Assembly: GCA_015664885.1 (NCBI GenBank)
Contig: DQPL01000062.1
Coordinates: 1-51,122 of the forward strand
Direction: 5' to 3'
Length of the DNA: 51,122 bases
Origin: Gemmatimonadota bacterium
GTDB taxonomy: Bacteria > Gemmatimonadota > Gemmatimonadetes > Longimicrobiales > Gaopeijiaceae
Shown in pieces: positions 11,946 to 48,433 of this stretch. The notes under the pieces were generated by a model. It made no database searches. It saw nothing but the letters and a program-made list of their open reading frames with translations, and was not told where the DNA came from. The position numbers and the translations under genes were made by a program. Each line of letters opens with the position of its first letter. Position 1 is the first letter of the stretch.

Positions 11946-12644
11946 GTGATGGAGACGAAGGCGAGCGAGCACAAACCGCCCGTTGCTCCGCTTGGGCACG
12001 AGGTGCGGCAGAAGACGATCGACGTCCTCTGCGAATCCTTTGCTCAGGACGAGTTGGACGTGGAGGAGTTCGAGAATCGGGTCGAGCTCGTCGGGCGGGC
12101 CAGCAGCATGGATCAGCTACGCGCGATCCTCGCGGACTTGCCCAGCGCGACCCTCCCCACGCCATCGGTCGGGGTGGCGCCAAGACCTGCGCTTTCACCG
12201 GATAGAGTTCCCGGACACTCGGTCGCGGTAGGCGTGCTGGGTGGCGGGGGCAGGGCCGGTGCTTGGGTAGCGGCGCGCAACAACTGGGCGGTTAGTGTCC
12301 TCGGTGGCTGCAAGTTGGACCTTAGGGAGGCGCAGCTTGGACCAGGGGTAACCGAGGTGCGCGTACTGGGGATTTTGGGCGGAATAGACGTATTGGTTCC
12401 GCCCGACGTTCGTGTTGAGTGCTCGGGAATCGGGATCTTGGGCGGCTTTGGGCACCATGGTGCGGCGGACTCTACTCAGGATCCCGACGCTCCGGTGATC
12501 CGGGTCAGCGGGTTGGCCATCTTGGGGGGTGTAAGCGTCAAAGTCCGACATCCCGGGGAGTCTGCTCGCGACGCGCGGATCCGGAGGAGAGCGGAACGGA
12601 AAGCCAAGAAACTGCTGGAGAAACGGCAGAGGAACGAGTCATGA
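11946..12644 (+). CDS. DUF1707 plus LiaF-like C-terminal domain protein
   Basis: 232 residues (GTG 11946, or ATG 11949 after a GGGAGG site). Residues 20-65 form a DUF1707/SHOCT-like helical unit ('DVEEFENRVELVGRASSMDQ'). Residues 95-200 form a right-handed beta-solenoid like the LiaF/VraT C-terminal domain, with repeating 'VLGILGGIDV', 'GIGILGGFG', 'LAILGGVSVKV' turns. The C-terminus is a basic helix (205-230). There is no membrane segment. Related proteins sense or respond to envelope stress. The stop overlaps the ATG of the next gene (ATGA, 12641-12644), coupling it to the PDLQGNW protein. Confidence 0.85.
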   Translation: MMETKASEHKPPVAPLGHEVRQKTIDVLCESFAQDELDVEEFENRVELVGRASSMDQLRAILADLPSATLPTPSVGVAPRPALSPDRVPGHSVAVGVLGGGGRAGAWVAARNNWAVSVLGGCKLDLREAQLGPGVTEVRVLGILGGIDVLVPPDVRVECSGIGILGGFGHHGAADSTQDPDAPVIRVSGLAILGGVSVKVRHPGESARDARIRRRAERKAKKLLEKRQRNES

Positions 12645-13681
12645 GCGTACGGGCCCGCACCTCGCTTCTGGGGCTCTGCCTCGTGACGGCGGCCGCCGGG
12701 ATCTTCCATTCGGCCGCGGCTCAGGAGTGGGTCGCGCCTCGAACGCCCGATGGTCATCCGGACCTCCAGGGAAACTGGAGTAACGCGACGCTCACTCCGT
12801 TCGAGCGTAGAGCCGGGCAGCCCGCGGTCATGACGCGGGACGAAATCGATAGACTCGAGGGCAGGGCGGGGGCTGTAGTCACGGGAGGCGCCGTTCCCAG
12901 CGACCCGACCCGTGGGCCACCCCCGATAACGGGAGCGATCGGCCGAAGCTACAACGAGATCTACTACGATCGCGGGGACCGGTTGGCCGTCGTCAACGGA
13001 GAGACCCGCAGTTCGCTCGTCACGTTTCCCGCAGACGGTCGCATTCCAGAACTGACGCCGGAGGGCAAGAGGCGGAAGCACGAGTACGAGAAATTTCGCT
13101 CCCAGTTCAACCAGTACGACCACCCCGAGTTACGGCCTCTGGCTGAGCGCTGCATCGTTTTCTACGGATCGAGCTCCGCCAGCGTCATGGGACCACCCAT
13201 GACTCCCACTAGGGGATACAACAACAACTTCACCATCGTACAGAACGCCGACTACGTGTTGATCAGGTCGGAGATGATCCACGACACGCGCATCATTCGA
13301 CTGGGACGCCCCGAGAGGCTGCCGAAGCATGTGCGCCCCTGGTTTGGCGACTCCTGGGGCCATTTTGAGGGCAACACGCTGGTAGTCGAGACCACCAACA
13401 TCCACCCCCTCCACGGCCCCAGGGAGCAGACCGACAAGATCCCGCAGTCGGAGGATGCCAGGGCGATCGAGCGCTTCACGCGCCTCGACGACGACACCAT
13501 CCTCTACGAATTCGAGATCCACGACCCGCGGACCTACAGCGAGGTCTGGGGTGGCCAGGTGCCGTGGCGCAGGTACGACGACCTGCTCTATGAATATGCA
13601 TGCCACGAGGGAAACTACGCGCTTACCAATGTTTTGAGCGGCGCCCGCTATCAGGAGAGACAGGCCGGCCGCCGCGAGTGA
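12641..13681 (+). CDS. Exported 'PDLQGNW' family protein, paralog A
   Basis: 346 residues from ATG 12641, which overlaps the preceding stop; the frame is open further upstream but that stretch is out of phase with the DUF1707 gene. The signal peptide ends 'HSAAAQ'. Blocks shared with the copies at 20421 and 47366: 'HPDLQGNWSNATLTPFER' (39-56), 'GDRLAVVNGE', 'ADGRIPELTPEGK', 'HPELRPLAERC' (Cys171), 'YNNNFTIVQNADYVLIRSEM', 'WFGDSWGHFEGNTLVVETTN', and the end block 'ACHEGNYALTNVLSGARYQE' (Cys321). The two cysteines are conserved in all three and could form a disulfide. The family is common in Acidobacteriota and Gemmatimonadota but uncharacterised; a beta-rich periplasmic protein is likely. Confidence 0.88.
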   Translation: MSVRARTSLLGLCLVTAAAGIFHSAAAQEWVAPRTPDGHPDLQGNWSNATLTPFERRAGQPAVMTRDEIDRLEGRAGAVVTGGAVPSDPTRGPPPITGAIGRSYNEIYYDRGDRLAVVNGETRSSLVTFPADGRIPELTPEGKRRKHEYEKFRSQFNQYDHPELRPLAERCIVFYGSSSASVMGPPMTPTRGYNNNFTIVQNADYVLIRSEMIHDTRIIRLGRPERLPKHVRPWFGDSWGHFEGNTLVVETTNIHPLHGPREQTDKIPQSEDARAIERFTRLDDDTILYEFEIHDPRTYSEVWGGQVPWRRYDDLLYEYACHEGNYALTNVLSGARYQERQAGRRE

Positions 13682-19810: not shown

Positions 19811-20420
19811 TGTCTAACATAGGGAGTGGTACCACACCTGGGGGCACGTCACTCGCAGGATGGACCCTTCTTCCAATTCCGATAGACGATAATGACATAG
19901 ATGAGTCCCCACACTGCAATGAGATCAGCACGACCTGAATACAACACTAGTGCAAGGGCACCATATAACAGCAACTGCTGTGGAGGTTTTTGACCTCAGA
20001 GTGATTTCATTTTTTCTCCATAAGATTCGTTAGGTGTGTCTATTCAGTTTACAGCACTCATCGTTTGAGCAAAACACTGTTCATAGGTTCAGCGGTGGTG
20101 GCGGTGAAATAGGGGGGGGGGGGTACCCCACTGGGGGTCTCGCCTGTCGGCAAAAGGGACCCGCCCGAGCTACCAAATATTTTTCGGGGAACGGTATTGC
20201 ACTGGCGTCGATGTGTGCGGCCCTGCACTAGTACCACCCCGTCCGGTGAGCAGGCGGGGGGGGGTAAGCAGTCGGAAACCCCATGGAAAGTGAGTGTTTC
20301 GCAAGACCGAATGTGTGATGAAGTGTGTGATGTTAAATAATTATGGGTTCCGTATCGTGCGTAAGTAATTGTACTACAACCATTTAGAATATTATCGCCC
20401 AACTACGGTAGGGAGGAATC
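19811..20420. other. Atypical AT-rich, low-coding stretch with long G-runs
   Basis: About 600 bases with clearly lower GC than the rest of the window and no recognisable gene on either strand. It contains runs of 12 G (20112-20123) and 9 G (20256-20264), the palindromic 'GGTACC' beside the first run, and T-rich tracts around 20010. The longest frame (20058-20402 minus) reads as noise. The rightmost 40 bases, with 'TTGTAC' (20369-20374) and 'TATTAT' (20390-20395, spacing 15), may hold a promoter for the gene at 20421. It may be foreign DNA or an assembly join; the truncated FtsK gene ends against it. Confidence 0.7.
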
Positions 20421-21512
20421 ATGATCCCGCGCACCCCGAAGCTTCTCATTCTCGCTCTCGCAGTCGTATCGATGGGGCTCTTGTTCTCTGTCGATGCGCT
20501 GGCGCAGGACAGGTCCTCGCGCTGGGATCCGGACTGGGATCCTCCCCGGACCGCCTGGGGCCATCCCGACCTCCAGGGCAACTGGAGCAACGTGACACTC
20601 ACGCCCTTCGAGCGGCCTCAGGGCACGGGCCCGGTATACACGTGGGCCCAAGTCGACAGTATTGCCGGTCGGGAGGGGGCGAGGGTCGACCGGGGCTTCG
20701 AGGCAAGTGACCCGAACCGCGCCGCACCCCGGGTGACGGGCAGCGTCGGGGGATACAACGAGGTCTACTTCGATCGCGGCGACGGGGTGGCGATGGTCGA
20801 CGGAGAGCCGCGAACGTCGCTCATCACGTGGCCGGCCGACGGCCGCATCCCTGCGCTTTCGGCGGAGGGCCAGAAGCGAAAAGACGACTACGACGAGTTC
20901 AGATCCCAGTTCGCCCTGTACGATCATCCCGAACTGCGGCCGCTCGCCGAGCGTTGCATCATCTACTACGGATCGAGCACCACCGGTGTGCTCGGCTCTC
21001 CGATGACGCCCACCCGGGCGTACAACAACAACCTCACGATCGTGCAGAACGCCGACCACGTGCTTATCCGGTCGGAGATGATCCACGACGTACGCATCAT
21101 CCGACTGGGCGAGCCGGACGAGCTGCCGAAGGACATGCGAGTCTGGTTCGGCGACGCCTGGGGCCATTGGGAGGGCAATACCCTCGTGGTCGAGACCACC
21201 AATCAGCACCCCGACCAGGGAATCAGCTTGAGGAGGCCCGGGGGCGTGTCCGGTAGCATGATCCGGCATTCAGAGGACTTGAGGGTGCTCGAGCGCTTCA
21301 CGCGAGTGGATGACGACACGATCCTGTACGAATTCGAGATCGACGATCCCAGGACGTACAGTGAGCCTTGGGGCGGGCAGATCCCCTGGGAGAGGTTCGA
21401 CCAGGAGATCCTCGAGTACGCATGTCATGAGGGGAACTACGCGCTTTCGAACATCTTGAGCGGTGCGCGTTACCAGGAGCGGCAGGGCGGGGTAAATCAG
21501 CCCGATGCGTAG
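20421..21512 (+). CDS. Exported 'PDLQGNW' family protein, paralog B
   Basis: 363 residues; a GGGAGG site lies 6 bases before the ATG. The signal peptide ends 'VDALAQ'. Shares all blocks with paralogs A and C: 'WGHPDLQGNWSNVTLTPFER', 'HPELRPLAERC' (Cys179), 'NNNLTIVQNADHVLIRSEMI', 'GHWEGNTLVVETTN', 'DDDTILYEFEIDDPRTYSEP' and 'ACHEGNYALSNILSGARYQE' (Cys335). It is the first gene of a compact operon: its stop overlaps the start of quinoprotein I by 8 bases, and that gene overlaps quinoprotein II. This suggests equal expression and possibly a shared complex with the dehydrogenases. Molecular function unknown. Confidence 0.9.
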   Translation: MIPRTPKLLILALAVVSMGLLFSVDALAQDRSSRWDPDWDPPRTAWGHPDLQGNWSNVTLTPFERPQGTGPVYTWAQVDSIAGREGARVDRGFEASDPNRAAPRVTGSVGGYNEVYFDRGDGVAMVDGEPRTSLITWPADGRIPALSAEGQKRKDDYDEFRSQFALYDHPELRPLAERCIIYYGSSTTGVLGSPMTPTRAYNNNLTIVQNADHVLIRSEMIHDVRIIRLGEPDELPKDMRVWFGDAWGHWEGNTLVVETTNQHPDQGISLRRPGGVSGSMIRHSEDLRVLERFTRVDDDTILYEFEIDDPRTYSEPWGGQIPWERFDQEILEYACHEGNYALSNILSGARYQERQGGVNQPDA

Positions 21513-23307
21513 ACGCGCTCCCGTCGCGGGGGCTGGCTTCACGGCAAGCGCGGTCGTGCTGCTGCTGGCGCCGCTTGCTGCAGAGCTTCAAGCGCAGTCG
21601 TCCGACGACTTCGTCCCGGTTACCGACGCCATGCTCCAGAACCCGGCGCCCGAGGACTGGCTCATGTGGCGTCGCACGCTCGACAGTTGGGGCTACAGCC
21701 CGCTCGATCAGGTCAATCGCGAGAACGTTGGTGAGCTCCAGATGGTGTGGACGCGCGACCTCGAACCGAGAACCGGTGAGATCACTCCGTTGGCGTACGG
21801 GGGGCTGCTCTACGTGCCGCAGGCGTCGGACGTCATTCAGGCGCTCGATGCGGTGACGGGTGACTTCGTCTGGGAGTATTCCCGCGACATCCCGGAAGAC
21901 CTCTACACCATGGTCGGGGGCAATGCCCGCAACAATCGCAACATCGCCATCTACGACCGCACGATCATCAATACCAGCGACGACAACTTCGTATTCGCGA
22001 TCGATGCGCTGACGGGTGAGACGGTCTGGGAAACCAAGATCTTCGACTATAAGGTCAACTCGGCCACGCACAGCTCCGGCCCCATTATCGCGGACGGCAA
22101 GGTCATTTCGGGGCGTAGCTGCCGGCCCTGGGGCGGACCGAACGCGTGCATCATCGCGGCCCACGACGCTCGTACGGGCGAGGAGTTGTGGCGGCGGCGC
22201 CTGATTCCAGCACCCGGTGAGCCCGGCGACGAGACATGGGGTGACGTGCCCTTCGAGGGGCGACAACACGTCGGCGCGTGGATGGTACCGAGCTACGACC
22301 CTGAGTTGCGATTGCTCTTCATGGGCACGTCGGTCACGTCGCCCGCGCCCAAGTTTCTGCTGGGCGGGCCGGAAGAAACGCACCTGTACCACAACTCCAC
22401 GCTCGCGCTCGAGATCGATACCGGGGAGATCAGGTGGTACTACCAGCACTTGAACGATCACTGGGACTTGGATCATCCCTTCGAGCGGCTGCTCGTGGAA
22501 ACGCGGGTCACGCCCAACCCTTCGGAGGTGAGCTGGATCAACCCGAGGCTGCAGTCGGGAGAGGTGCGTAAGGTCATCACTGGCATCCCGGGCAAGACCG
22601 GCATCGTCTACACCCTGGATCGCGAAACCGGTGAGTTCCTGTGGGCGACGCCGACCAACTACCAGAACGTGATCCTCGACATCGACGGAGCTACCGGGGC
22701 CGTCACGATCAACCCGGAAGTCATCTTCCGCGAGCTCGAGCAGGAGGTCTTCGTTTGCCCTACTTGGGCCGGCGGCAAGGACTGGGAAGCCGGGGCGTAC
22801 AGCCCGCTGACGCACACGATGTACTACCCGCTGCGGAATACCTGCGGGCAGATGTTGGCCACGAGCAACTTCGAGAGCGAGCGGGCGAGGGAGCTGACCA
22901 GAGGAGGGCAGGGCGGACTCGCGATTTATTCGCTCGCCTCACGGCACCAGATCACGCCTGGTACGGACTATCTCGGCACCGTTCGAGCTATCTCCGTGGA
23001 GACCGGCGAGACTACGTGGCTGCATGAGCAACGCGCCCACACCATGTCTCTGGTGGCGACCGGCGGTGGGCTTGTCTTCGGGGGTGACGCCAATGGGCGC
23101 TTCAAAGCCTTCGACGACCGAACGGGCGAAGTCCTGTGGGAAATCAATCTGGGTTCGTCGGTCAGCGGCTATCCGATTACCTATGCCGTGGACGGACGCC
23201 AATACGTTGCGGTCAACACCGGGTCCGGATCGATCAATCTGACCCCCGAGCTACGCCCGAGCAGAGGCACCAGCCTGTTCGTCTTCGCGCTGCCGAGCCG
23301 AGAGTGA
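21505..23307 (+). CDS. PQQ-dependent dehydrogenase I (alcohol-dehydrogenase-like quinoprotein)
   Basis: 600 residues starting at ATG 21505 inside the preceding gene. The signal peptide ends 'AELQAQ'. Eight-bladed quinoprotein propeller with repeated 'ALDAVTGDFVWEY', 'AIDALTGETVWETK' and 'AHDARTGEELWRR' tryptophan-docking motifs. 'NDHWDLDHPFERLL' gives the expected catalytic Asp321 and a second Asp323 two residues on, the position used for lanthanide binding in XoxF-type enzymes. The vicinal disulfide of methanol dehydrogenases is absent; Cys206 and Cys215 lie in the same area. No cytochrome c domain is fused. Likely oxidises an alcohol or sugar in the periplasm. GTGA overlap with the next gene. 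Confidence 0.92.
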   Translation: MRRRAPVAGAGFTASAVVLLLAPLAAELQAQSSDDFVPVTDAMLQNPAPEDWLMWRRTLDSWGYSPLDQVNRENVGELQMVWTRDLEPRTGEITPLAYGGLLYVPQASDVIQALDAVTGDFVWEYSRDIPEDLYTMVGGNARNNRNIAIYDRTIINTSDDNFVFAIDALTGETVWETKIFDYKVNSATHSSGPIIADGKVISGRSCRPWGGPNACIIAAHDARTGEELWRRRLIPAPGEPGDETWGDVPFEGRQHVGAWMVPSYDPELRLLFMGTSVTSPAPKFLLGGPEETHLYHNSTLALEIDTGEIRWYYQHLNDHWDLDHPFERLLVETRVTPNPSEVSWINPRLQSGEVRKVITGIPGKTGIVYTLDRETGEFLWATPTNYQNVILDIDGATGAVTINPEVIFRELEQEVFVCPTWAGGKDWEAGAYSPLTHTMYYPLRNTCGQMLATSNFESERARELTRGGQGGLAIYSLASRHQITPGTDYLGTVRAISVETGETTWLHEQRAHTMSLVATGGGLVFGGDANGRFKAFDDRTGEVLWEINLGSSVSGYPITYAVDGRQYVAVNTGSGSINLTPELRPSRGTSLFVFALPSRE

Positions 23308-25274
23308 AGCATCTCCTGATGACGACCAGACGCGGTCCCGCGCTTGCGTTGGTTTGCGCCGGCCTGGCATGGGCAGGTCCGGTCTCGGCGCAGTATGGCG
23401 CTGTCGATGGCGAGTGGAGGGTCTACGGCGGCGACGGCGGGCACACCCAGTACACGGGCCTGGATCAGATCGACGCGCAAAACGTTGGTGACCTCGAGGT
23501 GGCCTGGCGCTGGAAGGCGGAAAACTCCTCTGACCGCCCGATCTACAACCTCGAGTCGACCCCCATCATGATCGGGGGCGTGCTCTATACGACGACCGGC
23601 GCCAGTGAAGTCGCCGCCATCGATGCAGCTACAGGCGAGACGATTTGGATTTTCACTCCTGAGCCGAGAACCGATGCGGGGGGTGAGCCCGGTCCCGCGC
23701 CCTCAGGCTCCGGTCGCGGCGTCGCCTACTGGACCGATGGCGAGCAGGAGAGGATCTTTCACAACATCAGCGACGCTCGCCTGGTCGCGCTCGATGCGAA
23801 GACGGGCGTGCCCGTGGCCGACTTCGGGGAAAACGGATATGTGGATCTCGCCCGGGATCTCGTGAAGCCGGGAGCACGGGTACGCTGCATTTCCACCCCC
23901 ATCGTCTCCCACGACGTCGTGGTCTCCCAAGTGATTCCGGTGGGAGGCCCCAATGCCATCGAGTCGACACCGGGCCACATCCAGGGGTACGACGTTCGCA
24001 CCGGCAAACGGGTCTGGATCTTCCATGTCATTCCTCAAGGGGATGAATTCGGCGCGGACACCTGGCTGGACAATTCCTGGGAGTATTCCGGCCATGCAGG
24101 TGTGTGGACCCAGCTCACGGTGGACGAGGAGTTGGGCTACCTGTATCTGCCCACGGAGACCGGGTCGAACGATTGGTACGGAGGCCACCGGCCCGGCGAC
24201 AACCTGTTCGCCGAGAGCATCGTTTGCCTCGACATCCGTACCGGCGAGCGCATCTGGCACTATCAGCTCGTCCATCACGGCATCTGGGACTTCGACAACC
24301 CCGCTCCGCCTACGCTGCTCGACGTGACGCACGACGGACGCCGCATCAAAGCGGTCGCGGTCGTGACGAAGCAGGGCTACACGTACGTCTTCGACCGTGT
24401 GGATGGCACGCCGCTCTGGCCCATCATCGAGATGCCGATGCCGCCATCGGACGTTCCTGGGGAATGGACTTCTCCGACTCAACCCATCCCCTCGCGGCCG
24501 GCCCCGTTCGACCGCCAGGGCTTCACGGTCGACGACCTGATCGACTTCACGCCCGAGATCCGCGCCGAGGCTATGGAGATCGCGGCCCAATTCCGCATGG
24601 GTTCGCTGTTCACGCCCCCATCGCGGATCGATGATCCGGATGGAACGAAGGGTACGCTGGTCCTTCCCGGATGGGGCGGAGGCGCCAGTTGGCCAGGGGC
24701 CGGAGTCGATGTCGAGTCGGGCATCCTCTTCATCCCCTCGCTGACCGTGCCCATCGTGGCAGCGCTGGAAAAGAGTGAGCCGGGGGCGGGCGGGACCGAC
24801 TACTTCCGCTCGGGGGAGATCTATCCCGCAGGCCCGCGCGGACTGCCCCTGGTGAAGCCACCGTGGGGGCGCATCACCGCGATCGACCTCAATACCGGGG
24901 ACCACCTTTGGATGAAGCCGCTTGGTGGGGCACCTCGAGAGGTTCGTGAGCACCCCGACCTGCAGGGTCTGGGCTTGGACTTCTCGAGCATGGGGCAAAA
25001 CGGTCGGCCGGGTGCGCTAGTGACGAAGACTCTGCTCTTTATGGGGGAGGGTGGCGGCGTGCGGGGTGGCGTGGCTTCGCGCTATGGCGCCGGCGGGCCA
25101 ACCTTCCGCGCCTACGAGAAGCGAACGGGTGAGGTCGTTGCCGAGATCATCCTGCCGGCCAACCCGACTGGCAGCCCGATGTCGTACATGCTGAACGGCC
25201 GGCAGTACATCGTTGTCGCGGCGGCCACGCTGAATAGTCCGGCCGAGTTCATTGCCTTGGTGCTGCCAGACTGA
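23304..25274 (+). CDS. PQQ-dependent dehydrogenase II (glucose-dehydrogenase-like, soluble)
   Basis: 656 residues from GTG 23304, which overlaps the previous TGA; ATG 23319 is an alternative. The signal peptide ends 'GPVSAQ'. It matches the periplasmic part of membrane glucose dehydrogenase: 'WRVYGGDGGHTQY', 'GYDVRTGKRVWIFHVIP', 'DNSWEYSGHAGVW', 'VHHGIWDFDNPAPPTLLDV' (Asp329, Asp331), 'VTKQGYTYVFDR' (Lys356), 'GEWTSPTQPIPSRPAPFDRQ' and a final 'NGRQYIVVAAATLNSPAEF'. The five N-terminal membrane helices of E. coli Gcd are absent, so it must pass electrons to a separate carrier. Last gene of the overlapping three-gene operon. Confidence 0.93.
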   Translation: MKHLLMTTRRGPALALVCAGLAWAGPVSAQYGAVDGEWRVYGGDGGHTQYTGLDQIDAQNVGDLEVAWRWKAENSSDRPIYNLESTPIMIGGVLYTTTGASEVAAIDAATGETIWIFTPEPRTDAGGEPGPAPSGSGRGVAYWTDGEQERIFHNISDARLVALDAKTGVPVADFGENGYVDLARDLVKPGARVRCISTPIVSHDVVVSQVIPVGGPNAIESTPGHIQGYDVRTGKRVWIFHVIPQGDEFGADTWLDNSWEYSGHAGVWTQLTVDEELGYLYLPTETGSNDWYGGHRPGDNLFAESIVCLDIRTGERIWHYQLVHHGIWDFDNPAPPTLLDVTHDGRRIKAVAVVTKQGYTYVFDRVDGTPLWPIIEMPMPPSDVPGEWTSPTQPIPSRPAPFDRQGFTVDDLIDFTPEIRAEAMEIAAQFRMGSLFTPPSRIDDPDGTKGTLVLPGWGGGASWPGAGVDVESGILFIPSLTVPIVAALEKSEPGAGGTDYFRSGEIYPAGPRGLPLVKPPWGRITAIDLNTGDHLWMKPLGGAPREVREHPDLQGLGLDFSSMGQNGRPGALVTKTLLFMGEGGGVRGGVASRYGAGGPTFRAYEKRTGEVVAEIILPANPTGSPMSYMLNGRQYIVVAAATLNSPAEFIALVLPD

Positions 25275-25354
25275 CGCCTGTTGCGGCTGACTTCCCAGCC
25301 GCATGTTTGCCCCCTGGTAGCGTCGCAGTCCACGTCAAAAGCGGGAGGAGACTC

Positions 25355-26440
25355 ATGCGCATCATCCCAAGCATCCTCGGGGCGGCCGTGCTGACCGTCA
25401 TCGTTCTGGCCGCGTTCATGATGCGGGCCCCTGAGCCCCCACCCGCCGACTCAAGCGCCCGCATGGCGACTGCAGCCGAAGCTTACATGGGAACCCTCGG
25501 AAGCGCCGAGCGCGATCGCGGTACTTGGGCGCTGGACGCCGAACAGCGTTTCGATTGGCATTTCGTCCCTTGGGAGCGATATGGGGTCCGCCTCAAGGAC
25601 ATGAACCCGGAGCAACGCACCGTTGCCCACGGGCTCCTGCAAAGCGCGCTCAGCTCCCAGGGCTACCTGAAGGCGACCGGCGTCATGCAGCTGGAGGGGA
25701 TCCTCGGCCAGATCGAGGACCGGCCGGATCGACGTGATCCGGAGGACTACTATTTCAACGTCTTCGGCACGCCGTCCGAGAGCGGGGCATGGGCCTGGCG
25801 CTTCGAGGGACACCACATCTCGATGAACTTCACTTCGGCGGGGTCAGGGCCTCCGTCCGTGACACCGGCGTTCATGGGATCGAATCCGCACGTGGTTGGA
25901 GAGGGCCCGAACGCCGGGCGACGCCTGCTTGGAGCCGAGGAAGATCTGGCGCGCGATCTCATGGCCCTGCTCACTGATGCCCAACTCCAAAGAGTCATCA
26001 TCGAGGCGGAAGCTCCCCGCGACATCGTTACCGGGAACGCGCGCATAGTCGAACTGGATGAGTTCGAAGGCCTGCCCGTCTCGGAAATGAACGACGAACA
26101 GCGTCAGGCGTTGATGCACGTCATCGAGGAATACCTGAACAATGCGGTGGCCGACATTGCCGACGCCGAGATGGATCGCATCCACGAGGCGGGGCTCGAG
26201 AACCTCCATTTCGCGTGGGCGGGCAGCACCGAGCGCGGCGAGGGTCACTACTACCGCATCCACGGGCCCACCGTGTTGATTGAGTACGACAACGTGCAGG
26301 GTGGAGCCAACCACGTGCATTCGGTGTGGCGCGATCCCTCCAACGACTTCGGAGACGATCTGCTGCGGCGGCACTACGAAGAGGCGGAGCACCACCAGAA
26401 CGACCGCCTCCCGGCGGGACCCGGGGGAGGAGGGCGATAG
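25355..26440 (+). CDS. DUF3500-family exported protein
   Basis: 361 residues from ATG 25355 with a strong GGGAGGAG site; the frame is open to 25307 but the RBS favours this ATG. N-terminal signal anchor (about 5-27). DUF3500 hallmarks: 'RFDWHFVPWERYGVRLKDMN', 'AWRFEGHHISMNFT', 'LDEFEGLPVSEMNDEQRQ' and the C-terminal 'GPTVLIEYDNVQGGANHVHS' with 'NDFGDDLLRRHYEE'. The His-rich conserved turns ('GHHISMNF', 'NHVHSVW') suggest metal binding, but the family has no known function. It lies 80 bases after quinoprotein II and may belong to the same transcript. Confidence 0.88.
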   Translation: MRIIPSILGAAVLTVIVLAAFMMRAPEPPPADSSARMATAAEAYMGTLGSAERDRGTWALDAEQRFDWHFVPWERYGVRLKDMNPEQRTVAHGLLQSALSSQGYLKATGVMQLEGILGQIEDRPDRRDPEDYYFNVFGTPSESGAWAWRFEGHHISMNFTSAGSGPPSVTPAFMGSNPHVVGEGPNAGRRLLGAEEDLARDLMALLTDAQLQRVIIEAEAPRDIVTGNARIVELDEFEGLPVSEMNDEQRQALMHVIEEYLNNAVADIADAEMDRIHEAGLENLHFAWAGSTERGEGHYYRIHGPTVLIEYDNVQGGANHVHSVWRDPSNDFGDDLLRRHYEEAEHHQNDRLPAGPGGGGR

Positions 26441-26447
26441 GCGGCGG

Positions 26448-26476
26448 TTGACACAGAGTACTTGGCAATACAAAGT
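26448..26476 (+). promoter_or_regulatory. Candidate sigma-70-like promoter
   Basis: 'TTGACA' (26448-26453) is a perfect -35 hexamer, followed after exactly 17 bases by 'CAAAGT' (26471-26476), which matches only three of six -10 positions. It sits 41 bases before the ATG of the DUF4173 gene and would give that gene its own transcript. Confidence 0.35.
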
Positions 26477-26517
26477 CAAAGTCACGTGCGAAGTCGCTCT
26501 GTTGCGGAGAGGTGCCC

Positions 26518-28011
26518 ATGTCGATGCGTCTGGTGACTCGAGTCCTAGCGTCCGCGCTCGCTTTGGGGCTCTTGGGTGACTGGCTCTTGGAGACAGACGC
26601 CTTCGCCCTAAACGTCTTCGTGGGCATCGCCGCCCTCATGGTTTCCGCGACGCTGCTCGTTCGCTCGGAGGGCCAAGGGATGCCTCCCTGGGTTCCGGCG
26701 CTCATGCTCGTGCCCCCGCTCGTCGCGTTCGGACTCGTGTGGCGGGCCGCGCCCGCGCTCGGCGCTGCGAACCTGCTCGCGCTCGTGGCGGTGCTCTCGC
26801 TGCCCGTGCTCGGGACGGGGCGTGTGCGCCTCACCGTGGCGAGGCTCACCGACTACGCCGCCGGGCTGGCGGTGACCGGGACCCGAACCTTCGCTGGCCC
26901 GCTTCATTTTGCATCGTCCAAAGTGCCGTGGCATGAGGCGCTGGAGGGACTGCGCCGGCGTCGGGCGACCTCGGTATTTGTTGGGCTTTTGCTCGCCGCG
27001 CCCCTGCTGGTGGTCTTCTCCGGGCTGTTCGCTTCTGCCGACGCTGGGTTCGAGCGCGCCTTACAATCTGTCTTCAACATCGACTTCGAATCCCTCATCG
27101 CTCATGGCTTCCGTACCGCCTTCGTCGGCTGGCTTTCCGCCGGATACTTGATGGCCGCTATCAACGGCGCAGGCGCCCGCTCCGAGGCGTGGCGCAGGGT
27201 CGAGTGGCCGCGGCTGGGTGTGCTCGAGCTGGGCATTCCGTTGGGGGCGTTGACCCTGCTGTTCACGACCTTCGTGGTTATGCAGGCGGGATATGTTTTC
27301 GGGGGGGAGCAGCTCGTCCAAAACTCGGAGGGGCTCGGGTACGCGGAGTACGCACGCAGGGGCTTCTCCGAGCTGGTCGCCGTGGCGGTGCTGGTGCTCC
27401 CGGTCCTGCTGGGGGCGAATTGGCTCACCGACCGCACGAATCCCATTTCCTGCAAAGTGGTGAGGGGACTTTCAGGAGCGCTGCTGATCCCGTTGGCGAT
27501 GATCATGGGGTCGGCGCTGCACCGAATGGGGCTCTATGTGGACGCCTACGGCCTGACGCAGGACCGCATCTATGCCACCGCTATGCTCTTATGGGCCGGT
27601 GCGACTCTCGGCTGGCTCGGCGTCACCGTCCTGCGTAGCAGAGCCGAGCGCTTCGCTTTCGGCGCGATGGTGAGCGCGTTCGCGGTTCTCGGGGCTCTCA
27701 ACTTCGTGAATCCGGATGCGATGGTAGTACGCGTCAACCTGGCGCGGGCGGAGAGCGGTCAGGAGCTCGACGTCGCCTATCTGGCCACGTTGAGCGCCGA
27801 TGCCGCACCGGCGCTCGCCTCCTTCCTTACGTCGGACGCGGCGCCGTCGCTGCTCTCCGATACCGACGCGTGCTTCCTCCGTGAAGAGCTCCACCGTCTT
27901 TTGGAGGATGAGGGCCCTCGTGACTGGAGGAGCTGGAACGTGGGCCGTGAGCGAGCGGTCCGTGCGGTAGCGTCTTTGGAGCTGGCGGGCGCGGCGGATT
28001 CGTGCGAGTGA
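26518..28011 (+). CDS. DUF4173 (former DUF4153) multi-spanning membrane protein
   Basis: 497 residues from ATG 26518 after GGAGAGG; GTG 26512 is in frame. About eleven to twelve hydrophobic helices span residues 8-410. DUF4173 marks include 'EYARRGFSELVAVAVLVLPV', 'SALHRMGLYVDAYGLTQDRI' and the following membrane segment. A soluble C-terminal tail of about 85 residues follows ('ARAESGQELDVAYLATLSAD' to 'RAVASLELAG'), as is usual for this family. In other bacteria it neighbours two-component genes; none is here. Function unknown. Confidence 0.9.
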   Translation: MSMRLVTRVLASALALGLLGDWLLETDAFALNVFVGIAALMVSATLLVRSEGQGMPPWVPALMLVPPLVAFGLVWRAAPALGAANLLALVAVLSLPVLGTGRVRLTVARLTDYAAGLAVTGTRTFAGPLHFASSKVPWHEALEGLRRRRATSVFVGLLLAAPLLVVFSGLFASADAGFERALQSVFNIDFESLIAHGFRTAFVGWLSAGYLMAAINGAGARSEAWRRVEWPRLGVLELGIPLGALTLLFTTFVVMQAGYVFGGEQLVQNSEGLGYAEYARRGFSELVAVAVLVLPVLLGANWLTDRTNPISCKVVRGLSGALLIPLAMIMGSALHRMGLYVDAYGLTQDRIYATAMLLWAGATLGWLGVTVLRSRAERFAFGAMVSAFAVLGALNFVNPDAMVVRVNLARAESGQELDVAYLATLSADAAPALASFLTSDAAPSLLSDTDACFLREELHRLLEDEGPRDWRSWNVGRERAVRAVASLELAGAADSCE

Positions 28012-28167
28012 CGGGAGTCAGCGCCTGACGTCGGTGGGCACCGGTCCCGGTGCGTGCCCGCGGGGTCCGACGTACTTTGCTCCCGCGTCGAGCGTCGTCC
28101 TGACTCGCGGCGTAGGCCCCAACGCACGGGCCCCGTGAGCCCATCTGTTCTGGGGAAGGAAGACTCC

Positions 28168-30153
28168 GTGATCCGCAGGTCGTTGTACGCAGGGACGTGG
28201 ACCGTAGCTGTGGGTGCTCTGCTCGCGGCACCTGTGCTCGCCCAGCAGGGCGCTACCGACGGGCAGTGGCGAGCGTTCGCAGGCGACCCTGGCGCGACGA
28301 AGTATTCGTCGCTCGGTCAGATCACGAAGGACAACGTAGCCGACCTGACCGTCGTCTGGCGTCGTCCGACCGTCGACACGTCGATCCTTCAGCACGTTCC
28401 GGAGGCCGGCGAGCGTAGCCTCATTGGGACCCCGCTCATGGTCGATGGCGTGCTCTACAGCCCGAATGGTGTGGGTCTGGTGGAGGCTTTCGATCCGGGA
28501 ACGGGTAGGACGCTTTGGGTTCAGGAGCCGGTGGTCGAAGGACCGGATGGGGATCTGCTCGATGCGTACCTGACCGGCGCGTCTACGCGCGGCGTGGCGC
28601 ACTGGAGCGACGGCACCGATTCGCGAATCCTCGTGCAGCGCGGTGAATATCTGTACGTCCTCGACGCTCGTACCGGACAGCCGATTGCCGAGTTCGGAAC
28701 CGATGGCCGCATCGACCTGACGGCGGGCCTCCAAGAGGGTGCCCGCTACCGTTGGCCGGGAGCACCCACCGTTGTAGGCAACGTAGTCGTGTTGGGCAAT
28801 GCCATGCGCGACGTCTTCAGGAGCAAGGAGTTCGTGAGGGGCGACGTGCAAGCGTTCGACGTGCGCACCGGCGAGCTTCGCTGGATGTTTCATACGGTCC
28901 CACAGGATGGCGAGCTCGGCATCGACACCTGGGAAAACGACTCCTGGCGATACTCGGGGCACGCCCCTGTCTGGTCTCTGTTCAGTGCCGACCCGGAACT
29001 GGGGCTGGTCTACATGCCGGTGTCTTCGTCGACCAACGACATGTACGGCGGCCATCGCCTCGGAGACAATCTCTTCAGCCAGAGCCTGGTCTGCGTCGAC
29101 GCCGAGACCGGGGAGCGCGTGTGGCATTATCAGTTCGTGCACCACGGATTGTGGGACTACGATACTCCTGCCGCCCCGATCCTGATGGACCTGGTCGTCG
29201 ATGGGCGGCCCGTCAGCGCGGTCGCGCAGATTACGAAGCAGGCGTTCGTCTACGTGTTCGACCGCGTGACCGGCGAGCCCGTCTGGCCAATCGAAGAGCG
29301 GCCCGTGCCACGGTCGCAGACGCCGGGGGAGCGTACGTCACCGACGCAGCCATTCCCCACCAAGCCGCCGCCCTTCGACCGGCAGGGCTCGACCGAGGAC
29401 AACCTGATCGACTTTACGCCGGAGCTGCGCGCCGAGGCGCTCGACATCGTTTCTCGGTATACGACCGGTCCGCTCTTCACACCACCCTCGATCCGCGTCG
29501 AGGAGCCGGACGGAAATCTCGGGACCATCCAGCTTCCCGGGTCCCAGGGCGGTGCCGACGTGCAGGGCGCCGCGTTCGATCCCGAGACCAACACGCTCTA
29601 CGTGCCCTCGATCACGTCGCCGTTTGTCGCGGACATCGTGCCCGGGGATCCCGACGGCGATCTGAACTACGTGTTGGGCGGCAGGCAGTGGATTGCGGGG
29701 CCACGGGGACTGCCTCTCTTCAAGCCGCCTTACGGGCGCATCACCGCTTTGGATATGAACGCGGGCGAGATCCTCTGGCAGGTGCCGAACGGACACGGGC
29801 CCCGCGATCATCCCGCCATCAGGCATCTCGGACTGGACCGGCTGGGCTCGCCGGGTCGCCCGTCGCCTCTGGCCACCGGGACCCTACTCTTCATCGGCGA
29901 AGGTTCCGATCTCGTCGGTGGGCCGAGAGTCCCAGAAGGGATGCCGCTCGAGATCTCGACCAACTACGGTGAGCCGTGGTTCCGCGCGTACGACAAGGAG
30001 ACGGGTGACGTCGTATGGGAGATGGAACTTCCGGCCGGGACCACCGGGGCGCCCATGACCTACATGCACGAGGGTCGGCAGTACATCGTCGTGGCGGTGA
30101 ACGGTCGGGACGTACCTGCCCAATTCCTCGCGTTTAGTTTGCCTCAGCGGTAA
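28168..30153 (+). CDS. PQQ-dependent dehydrogenase III (glucose-dehydrogenase-like, soluble)
   Basis: 661 residues from GTG 28168 with AAGGAAG upstream; the open frame reaches back to 28054 but lacks a signal there. The signal peptide ends 'APVLAQ'. Same architecture as quinoproteins II and IV: 'WRAFAGDPGATKYSSLGQIT', 'ENDSWRYSGHAPVW', 'VHHGLWDYDTPAAPIL' (Asp330, Asp332), 'ITKQAFVYVFDR' (Lys357), 'ERTSPTQPFPTKPPPFDRQG' and 'EGRQYIVVAVNGRDVPAQF'. The substrate loop around 'PVVEGPDGDLLDAYLTGAST' differs from the other copies, so the substrate is probably different. Monocistronic by layout; convergent with the NHL gene with 12 bases between. Confidence 0.92.
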   Translation: MIRRSLYAGTWTVAVGALLAAPVLAQQGATDGQWRAFAGDPGATKYSSLGQITKDNVADLTVVWRRPTVDTSILQHVPEAGERSLIGTPLMVDGVLYSPNGVGLVEAFDPGTGRTLWVQEPVVEGPDGDLLDAYLTGASTRGVAHWSDGTDSRILVQRGEYLYVLDARTGQPIAEFGTDGRIDLTAGLQEGARYRWPGAPTVVGNVVVLGNAMRDVFRSKEFVRGDVQAFDVRTGELRWMFHTVPQDGELGIDTWENDSWRYSGHAPVWSLFSADPELGLVYMPVSSSTNDMYGGHRLGDNLFSQSLVCVDAETGERVWHYQFVHHGLWDYDTPAAPILMDLVVDGRPVSAVAQITKQAFVYVFDRVTGEPVWPIEERPVPRSQTPGERTSPTQPFPTKPPPFDRQGSTEDNLIDFTPELRAEALDIVSRYTTGPLFTPPSIRVEEPDGNLGTIQLPGSQGGADVQGAAFDPETNTLYVPSITSPFVADIVPGDPDGDLNYVLGGRQWIAGPRGLPLFKPPYGRITALDMNAGEILWQVPNGHGPRDHPAIRHLGLDRLGSPGRPSPLATGTLLFIGEGSDLVGGPRVPEGMPLEISTNYGEPWFRAYDKETGDVVWEMELPAGTTGAPMTYMHEGRQYIVVAVNGRDVPAQFLAFSLPQR

Positions 30154-30165
30154 AGTCGACTGGCC

Positions 30166-31260
30166 TCAGCTGCCGTCCGACGTGATTCGTCGAGACTGGA
30201 TCAACAGCTTCTGCACCCGCCAGTTGTTCATGTCGGCCACCCAGAGGATGCCTTCGTCCATCTGCGAGCAGTCCAGACCGTGCACCCAGTTGAATTGACC
30301 CGGCCCGCGACCTGAGCTGCCTAGCCAACCCTTGATCTCGCCATCCAGCGTCATCTGGTAGATGCGGCCAGGCTCGTTGTCTGAGACCCAGATCTCCTGA
30401 GGCGTCGAGTCGGTGATGCACATCGACCAGGGCTGGGTGGCATCCGGGAGCCGCCGATTCGGGTTGATCGCGGTGTAAGGCGGCTGATAGTCCGCGGGGT
30501 AGGGCACGTTCATGAGCAGCACGCGCAGGAAGTTACCGTCGGAGTCGAACACCTGAATTCGTCGGTTCGAGCGATCCCCCACGTAGATGTTACCCTCGCG
30601 GTCAGCTTGCATGGTGTGCGGCAGATTGAATTGGCCGATGTCCGAGCCGTAGGAGCCCCAGTCCATCAGGAAGTTCCCGTTCATGTCGAACTTCACCATG
30701 CGCGAGTTCACATAGCCGTCGCTGACGAAGATGTTGCCGTCCGGATCCCAGGCCACATCGGTGGGCCCGTTGAAGTAGCCGCCGACGGCCCTCGCTTCGC
30801 GCTGGTTGGGAAGCTCGACGTCGCCATGGTACCCCTCTTCCCGGCGCCCCAGGTTCATGCTGACATAACCATCTGGGTCGAACTTGATGACCGTATTGGC
30901 AGCCTTGTCTACGACCCAGAGGTTGTCCTCGTCATCGAAGCGCACCTGGTGGGCATAGGCGATGCCGTACACGCCCTTCCCGATCTCTCCCACGTAGTAG
31001 CCGTCCTGGTCGAACTCGAGCAGCTGCGTAGTGGAATTCGACCAGATCGGACCCTGATTTGCACTACCCGGGTGATTGAGAATCACGATGTGTCCCACGG
31101 AATTCACTGCAATACCGAGGATTTCGCCCAGATTCATGTCAGGGGAGTACTTGAGCGGCCGGGGAAGCGACTCGAACGGAATCTCGGGTGCGGACTGCTG
31201 TGAGAATGCCGGGGTGGCGACCATCGCTGTCAGCGTGAGGATCAGGCAGAGGCGTTTCAC
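30166..31260 (-). CDS. Exported NHL-repeat beta-propeller protein
   Basis: 364 residues from GTG 31260 with TTAGGAG about 7 bases upstream. The signal peptide ends 'TPAFSQ'. At least five NHL blades are visible, each with the 'GPTDVAWDPDGNIFVSDGY' or 'LPHTMQADREGNIYVGD' pattern followed by 'RIQVFDSDGNFL', plus a final 'GQFNWVHGLDCSQMDEGILW'. This propeller type occurs in peptidyl-alpha-hydroxyglycine amidating lyases and in many binding proteins; the lyase metal ligands cannot be confirmed by eye. It follows the acetoacetyl-CoA synthetase gene on the same strand after 107 bases. Confidence 0.88.
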   Translation of the reverse strand: MKRLCLILTLTAMVATPAFSQQSAPEIPFESLPRPLKYSPDMNLGEILGIAVNSVGHIVILNHPGSANQGPIWSNSTTQLLEFDQDGYYVGEIGKGVYGIAYAHQVRFDDEDNLWVVDKAANTVIKFDPDGYVSMNLGRREEGYHGDVELPNQREARAVGGYFNGPTDVAWDPDGNIFVSDGYVNSRMVKFDMNGNFLMDWGSYGSDIGQFNLPHTMQADREGNIYVGDRSNRRIQVFDSDGNFLRVLLMNVPYPADYQPPYTAINPNRRLPDATQPWSMCITDSTPQEIWVSDNEPGRIYQMTLDGEIKGWLGSSGRGPGQFNWVHGLDCSQMDEGILWVADMNNWRVQKLLIQSRRITSDGS

Positions 31261-31281
31261 AGTCAGTCTCCTAAGCTCGTG

Positions 31282-31365
31282 TTATTGGCGAAGATACTCG
31301 CCGAACCAGTCGATCGCGAGTGACGCTGCGGCATGATGTCCTCCGTCTCGAGGGGTCGCGACAGC
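31282..31365 (-). pseudogene. C-terminal tail of an alpha/beta hydrolase (prolyl oligopeptidase or esterase type)
   Basis: In the gap between the synthetase and NHL genes the minus strand encodes 'DGGHHAAASLAIDWFGEYLR' followed by a glutamine and TAA (31282-31284). The pattern, a 'DGGH' catalytic-His turn followed by a closing amphipathic helix, is the usual end of S9 peptidases and dienelactone-type hydrolases. The rest of the gene is missing: to the right the frame enters the 3' end of the synthetase. Probably the remnant of a gene deleted by insertion of its neighbour. Confidence 0.4.
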
Positions 31366-31367
31366 CG

Positions 31368-33392
31368 TCAGCCTTGCAGCTCGACGAGGTCCTGAAAGTG
31401 GGCGAGGGACTCCGGATTCGCGAGCGCATCGGCGTTCTCCACAGGGAGCCCGTGGATTGCTCGGCGCACAGCTATCTCACTGATTTTTCCGCTTATTGTG
31501 CGCGGGATCGCGGGTACGGCGAGCATGACTTTCGGTATATGGCGCGGTGAGCTGTTCAACTTGATCTCGCTCCGGATGCGGGCTCGGAGTTCGTCGTCGA
31601 GCTCCACTCCGGCGCGAAGCACCACGAACAAGACGATGCGTTCGTCGCCGTCCCATTGCTGCCCGACGGCTACGCTCTCGACGATCTCGTCTAGTCGCTC
31701 GACTTGCCGGTAGATCTCAGCCGTCCCGATCCGGACTCCTCCCGGATTGAGCGTGGCGTCCGAACGGCCGTGGATGACGAAGCCACCGTGCGCGGTTCTC
31801 TCGATCCAGTCGCCGTGACGCCAGGCCGGACGCGCCGTGTGCTCGAAGTACGCCGCTCTGAAGCGCATGTCATCGGGATCGTTCCAGAAGCGGACGGGCA
31901 CAGAGGGGAAGGCTCGAGTGCAGACGAGCTCACCCTGCTGGCCGGGCGGCAGCTCGACCGCCTCGGAGTCCCACACCTCGACGCTCATGCCCAATGCGGG
32001 CGCCTGGATTTCTCCGCGGTAGACCGGTGCGGTTGGGTTTCCTCCTACCAAGCACGCGACGAGGTCGGTGCCGCCGGCAATGGACGCGAGGTGCACGTCC
32101 GCCTTGACCCTGCCATAGACCCAGTCGAACGACTGGGGCAGCAAAGGTGAGCCGGTTGACAGGATCGTGCGCAGCGAAGACAGATCGTGCGTCTCCCTCG
32201 GGCACAACCCCTCCTTCTCCGCCAGCGCGAGGTACTTCGCGCTCGTCCCGAATACGTGCACGTGCTCGGCGTCGGCCACGTCCCACATGCGTGTCGGCGT
32301 CGCCTGGAACGGAGAGCCGTCGTATAGCACGATGCTCACGCCGGATGCGAGCGCCGAGACCATCCAGTTCCACATCATCCAGCCGCAGGTCGTGTAGTAG
32401 AACAGCGTGTCGCCGGGCCGCAGGTCGCAGTGCAGCACATGCTCCTTGAGGTGCTGGATGAGCGTGCCGCCCTGTCCGTGCACGATGCATTTGGGAATGC
32501 CCGTCGTGCCGGAGGAGTAGAGCACGTAGAGCGGGTGGTCGAACGGGAGTTGGGCGAAGTCGGGCGTCGGCTGGTCCGACGGGCTCGCGAACTCGTTCCA
32601 CGGGATCGCGTGCGGGATACCGACTAGGTCACCGGATCCAGCTTTGCCCCCGTAGTCGGCGACGACGACCGCGCCCAAAGACGGTAGGCGCTCGGAGATC
32701 GCTCGCACACGCTCTAGCGAGCCCATCCAGGATCCGTTCCACATCGCGCCCCTCGCGCAGACGAGCACCTTGGGCTCGATCTGGGAGAAACGATCCAGAA
32801 CGCCGTCGACGCCGAAGTCCGGTGAAGAAGACGACCACATCGCGCCGAGGCTCGAGGTGGCGAGCATCGCGATGACCGCCTCGGGAATGTTCGGCAGGAA
32901 GCCCGCGACTCGGTCACCGGGGGCGACACCGGCCCGCTGGAGTCCGGCCGCGAAGTGCGCGACCTGTACCCTCAGGTCCGCCCACGTGACCGAGGTGGTC
33001 GGTCCGTCTTCGTTCCAGGCGACGATCGCTTGTGGGCGACGCTCGGCGACGTGCCGATCCGCGAGCAAGTTCTCGGCGAAGTTGAGCCGGGAGCCGCTGA
33101 ACCATCGCGCGCCCGGCATGCGCGTGGGGTCGTCGACTACCTCGGTGGCCGGTTGCGAAGCCCGCACGTCGCAGAAGTCCCACAGTTCGGACCAGAACTC
33201 CGATGGCTCGCGGATCGACCACTCGTGGAGAGGTGCGATGGAGTCGGACTCAATCACCTCGGTCGCTTCATGCCCCAGGTGGGCGCCGACCTGCTCGGCG
33301 AAGCGCACGAGATTGGTTGTCGCGACGCGCTCGGGCGAAGGGCGCCACATCAGCCTCCGGTCATCGGCCGAGGACGATGCTTCAGATGACAT
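31368..33392 (-). CDS. Acetoacetyl-CoA synthetase
   Basis: 674 residues from ATG 33392; an internal ATG at 33350 ('MWRPSPERV...') matches the usual family start better and gives 660 residues. Adenylate-forming enzyme: 'LYSSGTTGIPKCIVHGQGG' (P-loop), 'GWMMWNWMVSALASG', 'STGSPLLPQSFDWVY', 'RHGDWIERTAHGGFVIHGRS', and the C-terminal 'PAIPRTISGKISEIAVRRA' with the catalytic Lys. The ending 'PVENADALANPESL' is specific to acetoacetate-CoA ligases. It activates acetoacetate with ATP and CoA for ketone-body or polyhydroxybutyrate use, in the cytoplasm. Divergent from quinoprotein IV. Confidence 0.94.
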   Translation of the reverse strand: MSSEASSSADDRRLMWRPSPERVATTNLVRFAEQVGAHLGHEATEVIESDSIAPLHEWSIREPSEFWSELWDFCDVRASQPATEVVDDPTRMPGARWFSGSRLNFAENLLADRHVAERRPQAIVAWNEDGPTTSVTWADLRVQVAHFAAGLQRAGVAPGDRVAGFLPNIPEAVIAMLATSSLGAMWSSSSPDFGVDGVLDRFSQIEPKVLVCARGAMWNGSWMGSLERVRAISERLPSLGAVVVADYGGKAGSGDLVGIPHAIPWNEFASPSDQPTPDFAQLPFDHPLYVLYSSGTTGIPKCIVHGQGGTLIQHLKEHVLHCDLRPGDTLFYYTTCGWMMWNWMVSALASGVSIVLYDGSPFQATPTRMWDVADAEHVHVFGTSAKYLALAEKEGLCPRETHDLSSLRTILSTGSPLLPQSFDWVYGRVKADVHLASIAGGTDLVACLVGGNPTAPVYRGEIQAPALGMSVEVWDSEAVELPPGQQGELVCTRAFPSVPVRFWNDPDDMRFRAAYFEHTARPAWRHGDWIERTAHGGFVIHGRSDATLNPGGVRIGTAEIYRQVERLDEIVESVAVGQQWDGDERIVLFVVLRAGVELDDELRARIRSEIKLNSSPRHIPKVMLAVPAIPRTISGKISEIAVRRAIHGLPVENADALANPESLAHFQDLVELQG

Positions 33393-33463
33393 TATTGGGG
33401 AGCGGGTCTTTCACGTGGCGCTTCCGCAGGCGTATGATGGCCGGAACATCAGGGAGGCATCGT
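33393..33463. promoter_or_regulatory. Short divergent control region
   Basis: Seventy-one bases separate the start of the acetoacetyl-CoA synthetase (minus) from that of quinoprotein IV (plus). They must hold the plus-strand RBS 'GGGAGG' (33452-33457) and at least one promoter. 'TATGAT' (33433-33438) is a plausible plus-strand -10, but no clear -35 precedes it. If the synthetase starts at 33350 the region is 42 bases longer. Confidence 0.45.
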
Positions 33464-47365: not shown

Positions 47366-48433
47366 ATGATCCCACGGGCATCGAAGCTGATCGCGCTCGC
47401 CATCGCCGTCTCGTCGACGGGACTTTTCGCGTCGGTAGCGGCTCAGTCGGTGCCGCGAAACCAACGATGGGATCCCAACTATCAGCCGGGTCGCACCGCT
47501 TGGGGTCATCCGAATCTTCAGGGCGACTGGACCAATGCGACGCTCACGCCGCTCGAGCGCCGGCAAGGTACGGACGCGGTGTACAGCTGGGAGCAGGCTG
47601 ACCGAATCGCAGGTGGCCAATTGGCACGAAACCAGCGCGGCGCGGAGCCGAGTGACCCGAATCGCCCACCGCCTGAACCGGGCAACATCGGCGCATACAA
47701 TACGATTTTCTTCGAGCAGGGTGATGGCCCCGCGATCGTCAACGGTGAGCCCCGGGCCTCGCTCATCACGTTTCCGTCAGACGGTAGGATCCCTGCGCTG
47801 TCGGCGGAAGGTCAGAGACGGAAGCAGGAATACGACGCATTCCGGGCCCGGTTCGGTGACTTCGACCATCCGGAGCTGCGGCCCTTGGTCGAGCGTTGTG
47901 TCGTCTACTACGCGTCGAGTCGTACCGGCACCATGGGACCTCCGATGACGCCCACCGGGGGATACAACAACAACCTCACCATCCTGCAGACACCCGACCA
48001 TGTGTTGATCAGGGCGGAGATGATCCACGACACTCGCATCATCCGACTAGGCGAGCCAAATCGCTTGCCGAAGCACGTTCGTCCCTGGTTTGGCGACTCG
48101 TGGGGTCATTGGGAGGGCAATACGCTCGTGGTCGAGACCACCAACGTGCACCCCGACCAGGGCTACAACGAGTCCTTCGACAAGGTCCCGTACTCCGAGG
48201 ACTACCGCGTGATCGAGCGCTTCACGCAGGTCGACGACGACACGATTCTCTACGAGTTCGAGATCGATGACCCGCGGACGTATAGCGAGCCGTGGGGCGG
48301 GGAGATTCCCTGGGAGAGATTCGACCAGCAGATCCTCGAGTACGCCTGTCACGAAGGCAACTACGCTCTGGGCAACGTGCTGAGCGGCGCGCGCTACCAG
48401 GAGCGCCAGGGCGGGGGAAACGAAGACGAGTAG
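47366..48433 (+). CDS. Exported 'PDLQGNW' family protein, paralog C
   Basis: 355 residues from ATG 47366, chosen because 'MIPRASKLI' aligns with 'MIPRTPKLL' of paralog B; ATG 47363 is one codon upstream and AGGGGGA precedes both. The signal peptide ends 'SVAAQ'. The blocks match paralogs A and B: 'WGHPNLQGDWTNATLTPLER' (PDLQGNW here read as PNLQGDW), 'HPELRPLVERC', 'NNNLTILQTPDHVLIRAEMI', 'GHWEGNTLVVETTNVHPDQG' and 'ACHEGNYALGNVLSGARYQE'. Closest to B by eye. It is followed by a convergent dehydrogenase gene at 48459. Function unknown. Confidence 0.9.
   Translation: MIPRASKLIALAIAVSSTGLFASVAAQSVPRNQRWDPNYQPGRTAWGHPNLQGDWTNATLTPLERRQGTDAVYSWEQADRIAGGQLARNQRGAEPSDPNRPPPEPGNIGAYNTIFFEQGDGPAIVNGEPRASLITFPSDGRIPALSAEGQRRKQEYDAFRARFGDFDHPELRPLVERCVVYYASSRTGTMGPPMTPTGGYNNNLTILQTPDHVLIRAEMIHDTRIIRLGEPNRLPKHVRPWFGDSWGHWEGNTLVVETTNVHPDQGYNESFDKVPYSEDYRVIERFTQVDDDTILYEFEIDDPRTYSEPWGGEIPWERFDQQILEYACHEGNYALGNVLSGARYQERQGGGNEDE

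Follow-up and report, generated by a model that had tools for sequence, protein, structure and literature searches.

A paralogue of an expanded exported protein family, with a predicted barrel fold, shares a predicted operon with two PQQ quinoproteins in a Gemmatimonadota bacterium

The window analyzed here, a stretch of 51,122 nucleotides from a Gemmatimonadota bacterium of the Gaopeijiaceae (contig DQPL01000062.1), carries three closely packed genes at 20421-25274. The first encodes an exported protein of what we term the PDLQGNW family and the other two encode quinoproteins, henceforth QI and QII. These genes and their immediate surroundings comprise the following features:

20410..20416, + strand: Shine-Dalgarno-like AGGGAGG ahead of the PDLQGNW gene, inferred from the sequence
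20421..21512, + strand: PDLQGNW-family exported protein, paralogue B, 363 aa (ATG 20421, stop 21510-21512)
21505..21512, + strand: 8 nt shared by the PDLQGNW gene and QI, from the ORF coordinates
21505..23307, + strand: QI, 600 aa, with a signal peptide and an eight-bladed PQQ propeller (ATG 21505, stop 23305-23307)
23304..23307, + strand: GTGA overlap of QI and QII in the sequence, if the GTG start is used
23304..25274, + strand: QII, 656 aa from GTG 23304, with a signal peptide and a full-length PF01011 domain (alternative ATG 23319)
25355..26440, + strand: DUF3500 protein (PF12006, E 1.7e-92) with its own Shine-Dalgarno-like site, after an 80-nt gap behind QII

The 8-nt overlap between paralogue B and QI, described in the first-pass annotation, is borne out by the reading frames: the next in-frame start of QI after ATG 21505 is GTG 21556, from which the signal peptide would be lost, and no alternative start retains it. 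The GTGA overlap that the same annotation placed between QI and QII depends on the choice of start codon: it exists as a 4-nt overlap if QII begins at GTG 23304, whereas the in-frame ATG 23319, which is as plausible and equally leaves the signal peptide intact, turns the junction into an 11-nt gap. Signal-peptide-like N termini are found alike in the PDLQGNW protein, QI and QII, and a check of the three sequences recovered no CxxCH motif in any of them. Short gene overlaps are ordinary operon junctions and are a sign of co-transcription and translational coupling, not of complex formation. Judged by its layout, the trio constitutes one predicted operon of exported proteins, of which the DUF3500 gene is a possible continuation. 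No terminator-like site was predicted on the + strand from 23304 to 26440; a consensus promoter scan returned no sigma-70 site, a result without bearing on the limits of the operon.

Both quinoproteins match the PQQ propeller domain PF01011 far above the Pfam cut-off (QI, E 1.8e-61; QII, E 5.8e-182), and Pfam detected neither a cytochrome nor any other membrane domain in them, in keeping with the earlier observation that both lack heme and membrane domains. The closest solved relatives of QI are the heme-free PQQ alcohol/sorbose dehydrogenases (9m2c, 4cvb, 4mh1 and 7wmd; E about 1e-120), which it matches along its entire mature length; it shares with them the cysteine pairs C206/C215 and C418/C447 and the aspartate of the WD motif, and differs from them in that its gene follows a PDLQGNW gene. 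QII spans the full PF01011 model and resembles both the PQQ domain of the membrane glucose/quinate dehydrogenases (TIGR03074; 363 bits against a cut-off of 832) and the first half of the quinoheme alcohol dehydrogenases (1kv9, 1yiq), including the WD aspartate and the TKQG lysine; unlike these two sets of enzymes, it has neither a membrane nor a heme domain. The WD aspartate, which we take to be catalytic in PQQ quinoproteins, is residue 321 of QI (HWDLD, 319-323) and residue 329 of QII (IWDFD, 327-331) and aligns with the WD of 4mh1, 4cvb and 1kv9, while the lysine in the blade that follows (QI 364, QII 356) aligns with that of solved PQQ dehydrogenases or quinoheme alcohol dehydrogenases. 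The Glu and Asn that serve as metal ligands in the quinoheme alcohol dehydrogenases have no evident counterparts in QI and QII, and are equally absent from the aligned positions of 4mh1. Neither protein reaches an NCBIfam subfamily cut-off: QI scores 325 bits against the methanol/ethanol family (cut-off 480), and QI and QII score 233 and 192 bits against the acido-empty-quinoprotein group A (TIGR04528, cut-off 650). By these resemblances, QI and QII are probably soluble periplasmic quinoproteins that oxidize alcohols or sugars using scavenged PQQ; alternatively, they could be non-PQQ relatives comparable to the NCBIfam ‘acido-empty-quinoprotein’ group. Because neither contains heme, each would need a separate cytochrome as acceptor. 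In the window as a whole, four quinoproteins fall within 14 kb (21505-35443), namely QI, QII and the products of 28054-30153 and 33203-35443.

About 40 quinoproteins are encoded in the host genome, which spans 3.96 Mb and is 99.3% complete. No pqqC was found in it, and its best pqqB candidate (G000:C31:45844-46710) is full length and reaches 125 bits where the cut-off is 245; the same searches returned clear pqqB and pqqC genes in two members of the host's order (G011 and G014). A PqqB-like protein resembling the host candidate is also present in several relatives that have no true pqqB. The pqqE-like genes of the host fall far under the cut-off, in a search run without a positive control. One TonB-dependent receptor of the host (G000:C5:75480-77459) resembles E. 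coli PqqU, with 30% identity and an E-value of 6.6e-74, the next best being 2.4e-17. PqqU is reported to be widespread in Gemmatimonadetes, where scavenging of PQQ has been described, and only 23% of its bearers possess PQQ biosynthesis (PMC12124388). The conjunction of about 40 quinoproteins, a PqqU homologue and no detected pqqB, pqqC or pqqE equivalogs thus suggests that the host is probably a heavy user of PQQ that scavenges the cofactor instead of making it.

The PDLQGNW protein itself finds no matching family in Pfam or NCBIfam, and one-by-one Pfam scans of 39 and of 96 of its relatives were equally without a match, which agrees with the first-pass annotation, where no assigned role for the family was known. 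Profile searches recovered no solved relative. The window protein has only two cysteines, C179 and C335, which are invariant in the family, a pattern that would be compatible with a disulfide, as may occur in an exported protein. Nearly invariant across the family are E219, H222, D223, R225, E291, R292, Y303 and a CHEGNY motif, and E219, R225, E291, Y303, C335 and E337 are invariant in the 96-row set. Two AlphaFold models (the first with pLDDT 78.6 and pTM 0.77; the second, from the 96-sequence alignment, with pLDDT 85.0 and pTM 0.85) both present an antiparallel beta-barrel like that of the fatty-acid-binding (FABP) and retinol-binding proteins. The best structural matches of both are to FABPs and cellular retinol-binding proteins over about 120 of 136 residues, with Z-scores of 8.1 and 8.2, a level of about 8 being common with this aligner for models without a clear relative; for FABP5 at these scores the rmsd is 3.1-3.2 over 120-121 residues. 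Foldseek gave a probability of 0.99 for the two models with E-values of 1.8e-3 and 1.3e-2, and no match with E under 0.001. A calycin-type barrel is thus likely on the strength of the models, and the binding of a small molecule by it stays a prediction, given a fold match of only Z about 8. The predicted barrel is what the protein has in common with the calycins (the fatty-acid-binding and cellular retinol-binding proteins; avidin and NanoLuc are further structural neighbors); it departs from them in being an exported bacterial protein of 338 residues in its mature form that has long insertions as well as conserved cysteines and polar residues, and in showing no sequence relation. A relationship to streptavidin, hinted at by first-profile matches with E-values of 0.26 to 0.6, was discarded when these disappeared with a deeper alignment.

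The near-invariant polar residues and the CHEGNY motif exceed the needs of a generic lipid-binding barrel. This favors a reading in which the family consists of enzymes, for instance isomerases, cyclases or hydrolases on a barrel scaffold, that act in sequence with dehydrogenases or other periplasmic catabolic enzymes. The acyl-CoA dehydrogenase, thiolase and SDR genes that occur among PDLQGNW neighbors elsewhere, in the survey of 80 loci described below, point in the same direction; against it, the family matches no known catalytic family, and we consider an enzymatic function rather unlikely.

The PDLQGNW family occurs at about 20 places in the host genome, three of which lie in the window, and about 17 of its copies there are solitary paralogues. 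Apart from paralogue B, these are:

12641..13681, + strand: paralogue A; the next gene is a CoA-transferase family III gene, and no quinoprotein is adjacent
47366..48433, + strand: paralogue C, 70% identical to B, with no PF01011 quinoprotein beside it

The nearest relatives of paralogue B (70, 65 and 64% identity) are all without a quinoprotein neighbor. The gene at 45841-47214, divergent from paralogue C, encodes a protein that contains a CVECH motif and weakly resembles the copper monooxygenase C-terminal domain (E 0.0096), and a larger protein of similar make-up adjoins PDLQGNW members elsewhere (L110). Some loci (L033, L036 on G004:C62, and L101) carry as many as five PDLQGNW genes in tandem, which points to recent local duplication.

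From the tight coupling of the three genes, the first-pass annotation had proposed a stoichiometric periplasmic unit in which the PDLQGNW protein would insert the cofactor, deliver substrate or pass electrons for QI and QII. The gene overlaps, the export signals of all three products and the lack of heme in both quinoproteins favor such a complex. There is also a precedent in MxaJ/XoxJ, periplasmic accessories that are encoded in operons of PQQ dehydrogenases. A survey of PDLQGNW neighborhoods had been set as the test beforehand, and its outcome weakens the proposal: quinoproteins show a modest regional excess in related genomes, with a P of about 0.001 against a uniform null, and none locally across phyla. 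The first of these results comes from the host and four relatives, which together hold 48 PDLQGNW members and 128 quinoproteins; distances were taken from search-match coordinates and expected counts from a uniform null that is blind to contig breaks and gene islands, such that the P-values are only indicative. Nine of the 48 members have a quinoprotein within 2 kb against 2.6 expected (P 0.0014 under this null), with corresponding figures of 5 against 1.8 within 1 kb and 20 against 8.2 within 10 kb. From 300 bp to 10 kb, the observed count exceeds the expected one by a factor that never leaves the range 2.3-3.5 (2.3-fold at 300 bp, 3.5-fold at 2 kb and 2.4-fold at 10 kb), and this failure to sharpen indicates regional clustering, not pairing. 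Conversely, only 10 of the 128 quinoproteins have a PDLQGNW member within 2 kb, and in G014 the relatives of QI adjoin QII/QIII-like genes with no PDLQGNW member present (L135, L136). Mapped onto a 39-member tree, adjacency to a quinoprotein takes about seven changes to account for nine cases.

These patterns bring in a simpler possibility, namely that a PDLQGNW paralogue and a quinoprotein pair merely came to share a promoter without a common task, both families having expanded and spread across the same catabolic islands. Besides the absence of sharpening with distance, it is favored by the closest paralogues of B, which have no quinoprotein neighbor. It is opposed by the 8-nt overlap, which places a start codon inside the upstream gene and is tighter than expected of chance neighbors, and by one PDLQGNW-quinoprotein arrangement that has been kept between two species (G000:C45 and G001:C4).

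The wider survey bears on the same choice. A contig search with a single-protein query gave no matches and one with an alignment query succeeded, yielding 80 named PDLQGNW loci from Gemmatimonadota, Acidobacteriota, and Gamma- and Alphaproteobacteria. A quinoprotein lies within 2 kb in 10 of these loci. Quinoproteins account for 15 of the 413 genes within three genes of a family member and for 14 of the 448 genes at least five genes away, so that near and far genes are alike and no local excess beside the family is seen across phyla in the 80 loci; this is as a fortuitous operon would predict. At the level of whole genomes, quinoproteins number 6 to 40 in the five host-clade genomes that have the family, as against 0 to 4 matches in eleven relatives without it. 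In a wider sample the ranges overlap (3 to 17 matches with the family, 0 to 12 without), and G089 breaks the trend, having 12 quinoproteins and not a single PDLQGNW member. The genome-level co-occurrence reads as a shared life style, which again fits a fortuitous operon.

A different partnership recurs much more regularly. In 17 of the 80 loci the PDLQGNW gene lies directly between a gene for a short homologue and a DUF6152 gene, and two DUF6644 membrane genes accompany 10 of the 20 loci that hold all three of these genes as opposed to none of the 60 others (Fisher 1e-7). Such cassettes occur in several phyla (L063, L064, L065, L069, L070, L071, L072, L074, L101 and L114, with L010 in addition). 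The host has one (L010:439-2894, on G000:C136), of which only the first three genes are visible at the contig end. Paralogue B belongs to the family of the cassette's middle gene, but it is a solitary copy with none of the partners: neither DUF6152 nor the short homologue was found adjoining 20421-21512 on either the upstream or the downstream side. In three Gemmatimonadota genomes a quinohemoprotein gene directly precedes the short homologue (L065, L069, L074), a further point against mere co-location, which on balance we regard as a serious contender without favoring it.

In 19 of 23 DUF6152 reading frames, HHAF follows straight after the signal peptide (e.g., L063, L074, L133, L094 and L131), in the pattern HHAF(G/A/S)xEFD, and the mature protein would accordingly be predicted to start with His-His. 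An N-terminal His-His is the pattern of some copper sites. A copper-handling analogy of DUF6152/DUF6644 to E. coli YobA/YebZ (CopC/CopD) was rejected, as the profile comparisons gave probabilities of 7.6 and 0.2 percent and no homology. Within the body of papers searched, there was no mention of DUF6152, DUF6644 or ‘empty quinoprotein’. As a doubtful generalization, the PDLQGNW proteins might form a new class of exported barrels that were ancestrally partnered with the short homologue, DUF6152 and the DUF6644 pair, with single paralogues redeployed beside various periplasmic oxidoreductases as interchangeable ligand-binding modules.

With the nearest relatives of paralogue B devoid of quinoproteins, close pairing confined to a minority of members, quinoproteins and loci, and the recurring partners being DUF6152 and the short homologue, the stoichiometric unit fails as a property of the family. 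The absence of a redox motif in the PDLQGNW protein also weighs against an obligate complex, which we judge quite improbable at this locus. Of the partner roles proposed earlier, substrate delivery is possible given the predicted ligand-binding-type barrel, and electron transfer was rejected as unlikely for a protein with no heme motif and only two cysteines.

The reading that we prefer, with a probability of roughly 0.45, is that the window PDLQGNW protein is a periplasmic accessory that binds a substrate or product and is co-transcribed with QI and QII. Under this proposal, one of many solitary paralogues would have come under co-transcription with a quinoprotein pair, and its calycin-kind barrel would hold a small substrate or product, which may be hydrophobic, in the periplasm, the oxidation being left to the two soluble enzymes; the protein would thus act as an accessory linked to certain conditions and would not be required as a stoichiometric subunit. 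Like MxaJ/XoxJ, it is an exported non-redox protein encoded with quinoproteins; it is unlike them in having no Pfam match, in its gene standing before instead of after the dehydrogenase, and in a pairing that is not conserved. Both the ligand binding and the functional link to QI and QII are what we infer, and the latter may be just chance co-location in a quinoprotein-rich region, given the roughly seven changes on the tree. We therefore rank the accessory role first, mere co-location close behind it, and an obligate complex as unlikely; none of these is wholly exclusive of the PDLQGNW protein being an enzyme.

For the family, the proposed three-protein complex is thus without support as a general feature. 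The PDLQGNW proteins extend over several phyla and are expanded in a 4-Mb host while being covered by no Pfam or NCBIfam model, and the predicted ligand-binding-type fold, together with the conserved cassette, offers the first testable handles on their role. For the organism, about 40 quinoproteins alongside no detected PQQ biosynthesis equivalogs make the host a good case for PQQ scavenging.
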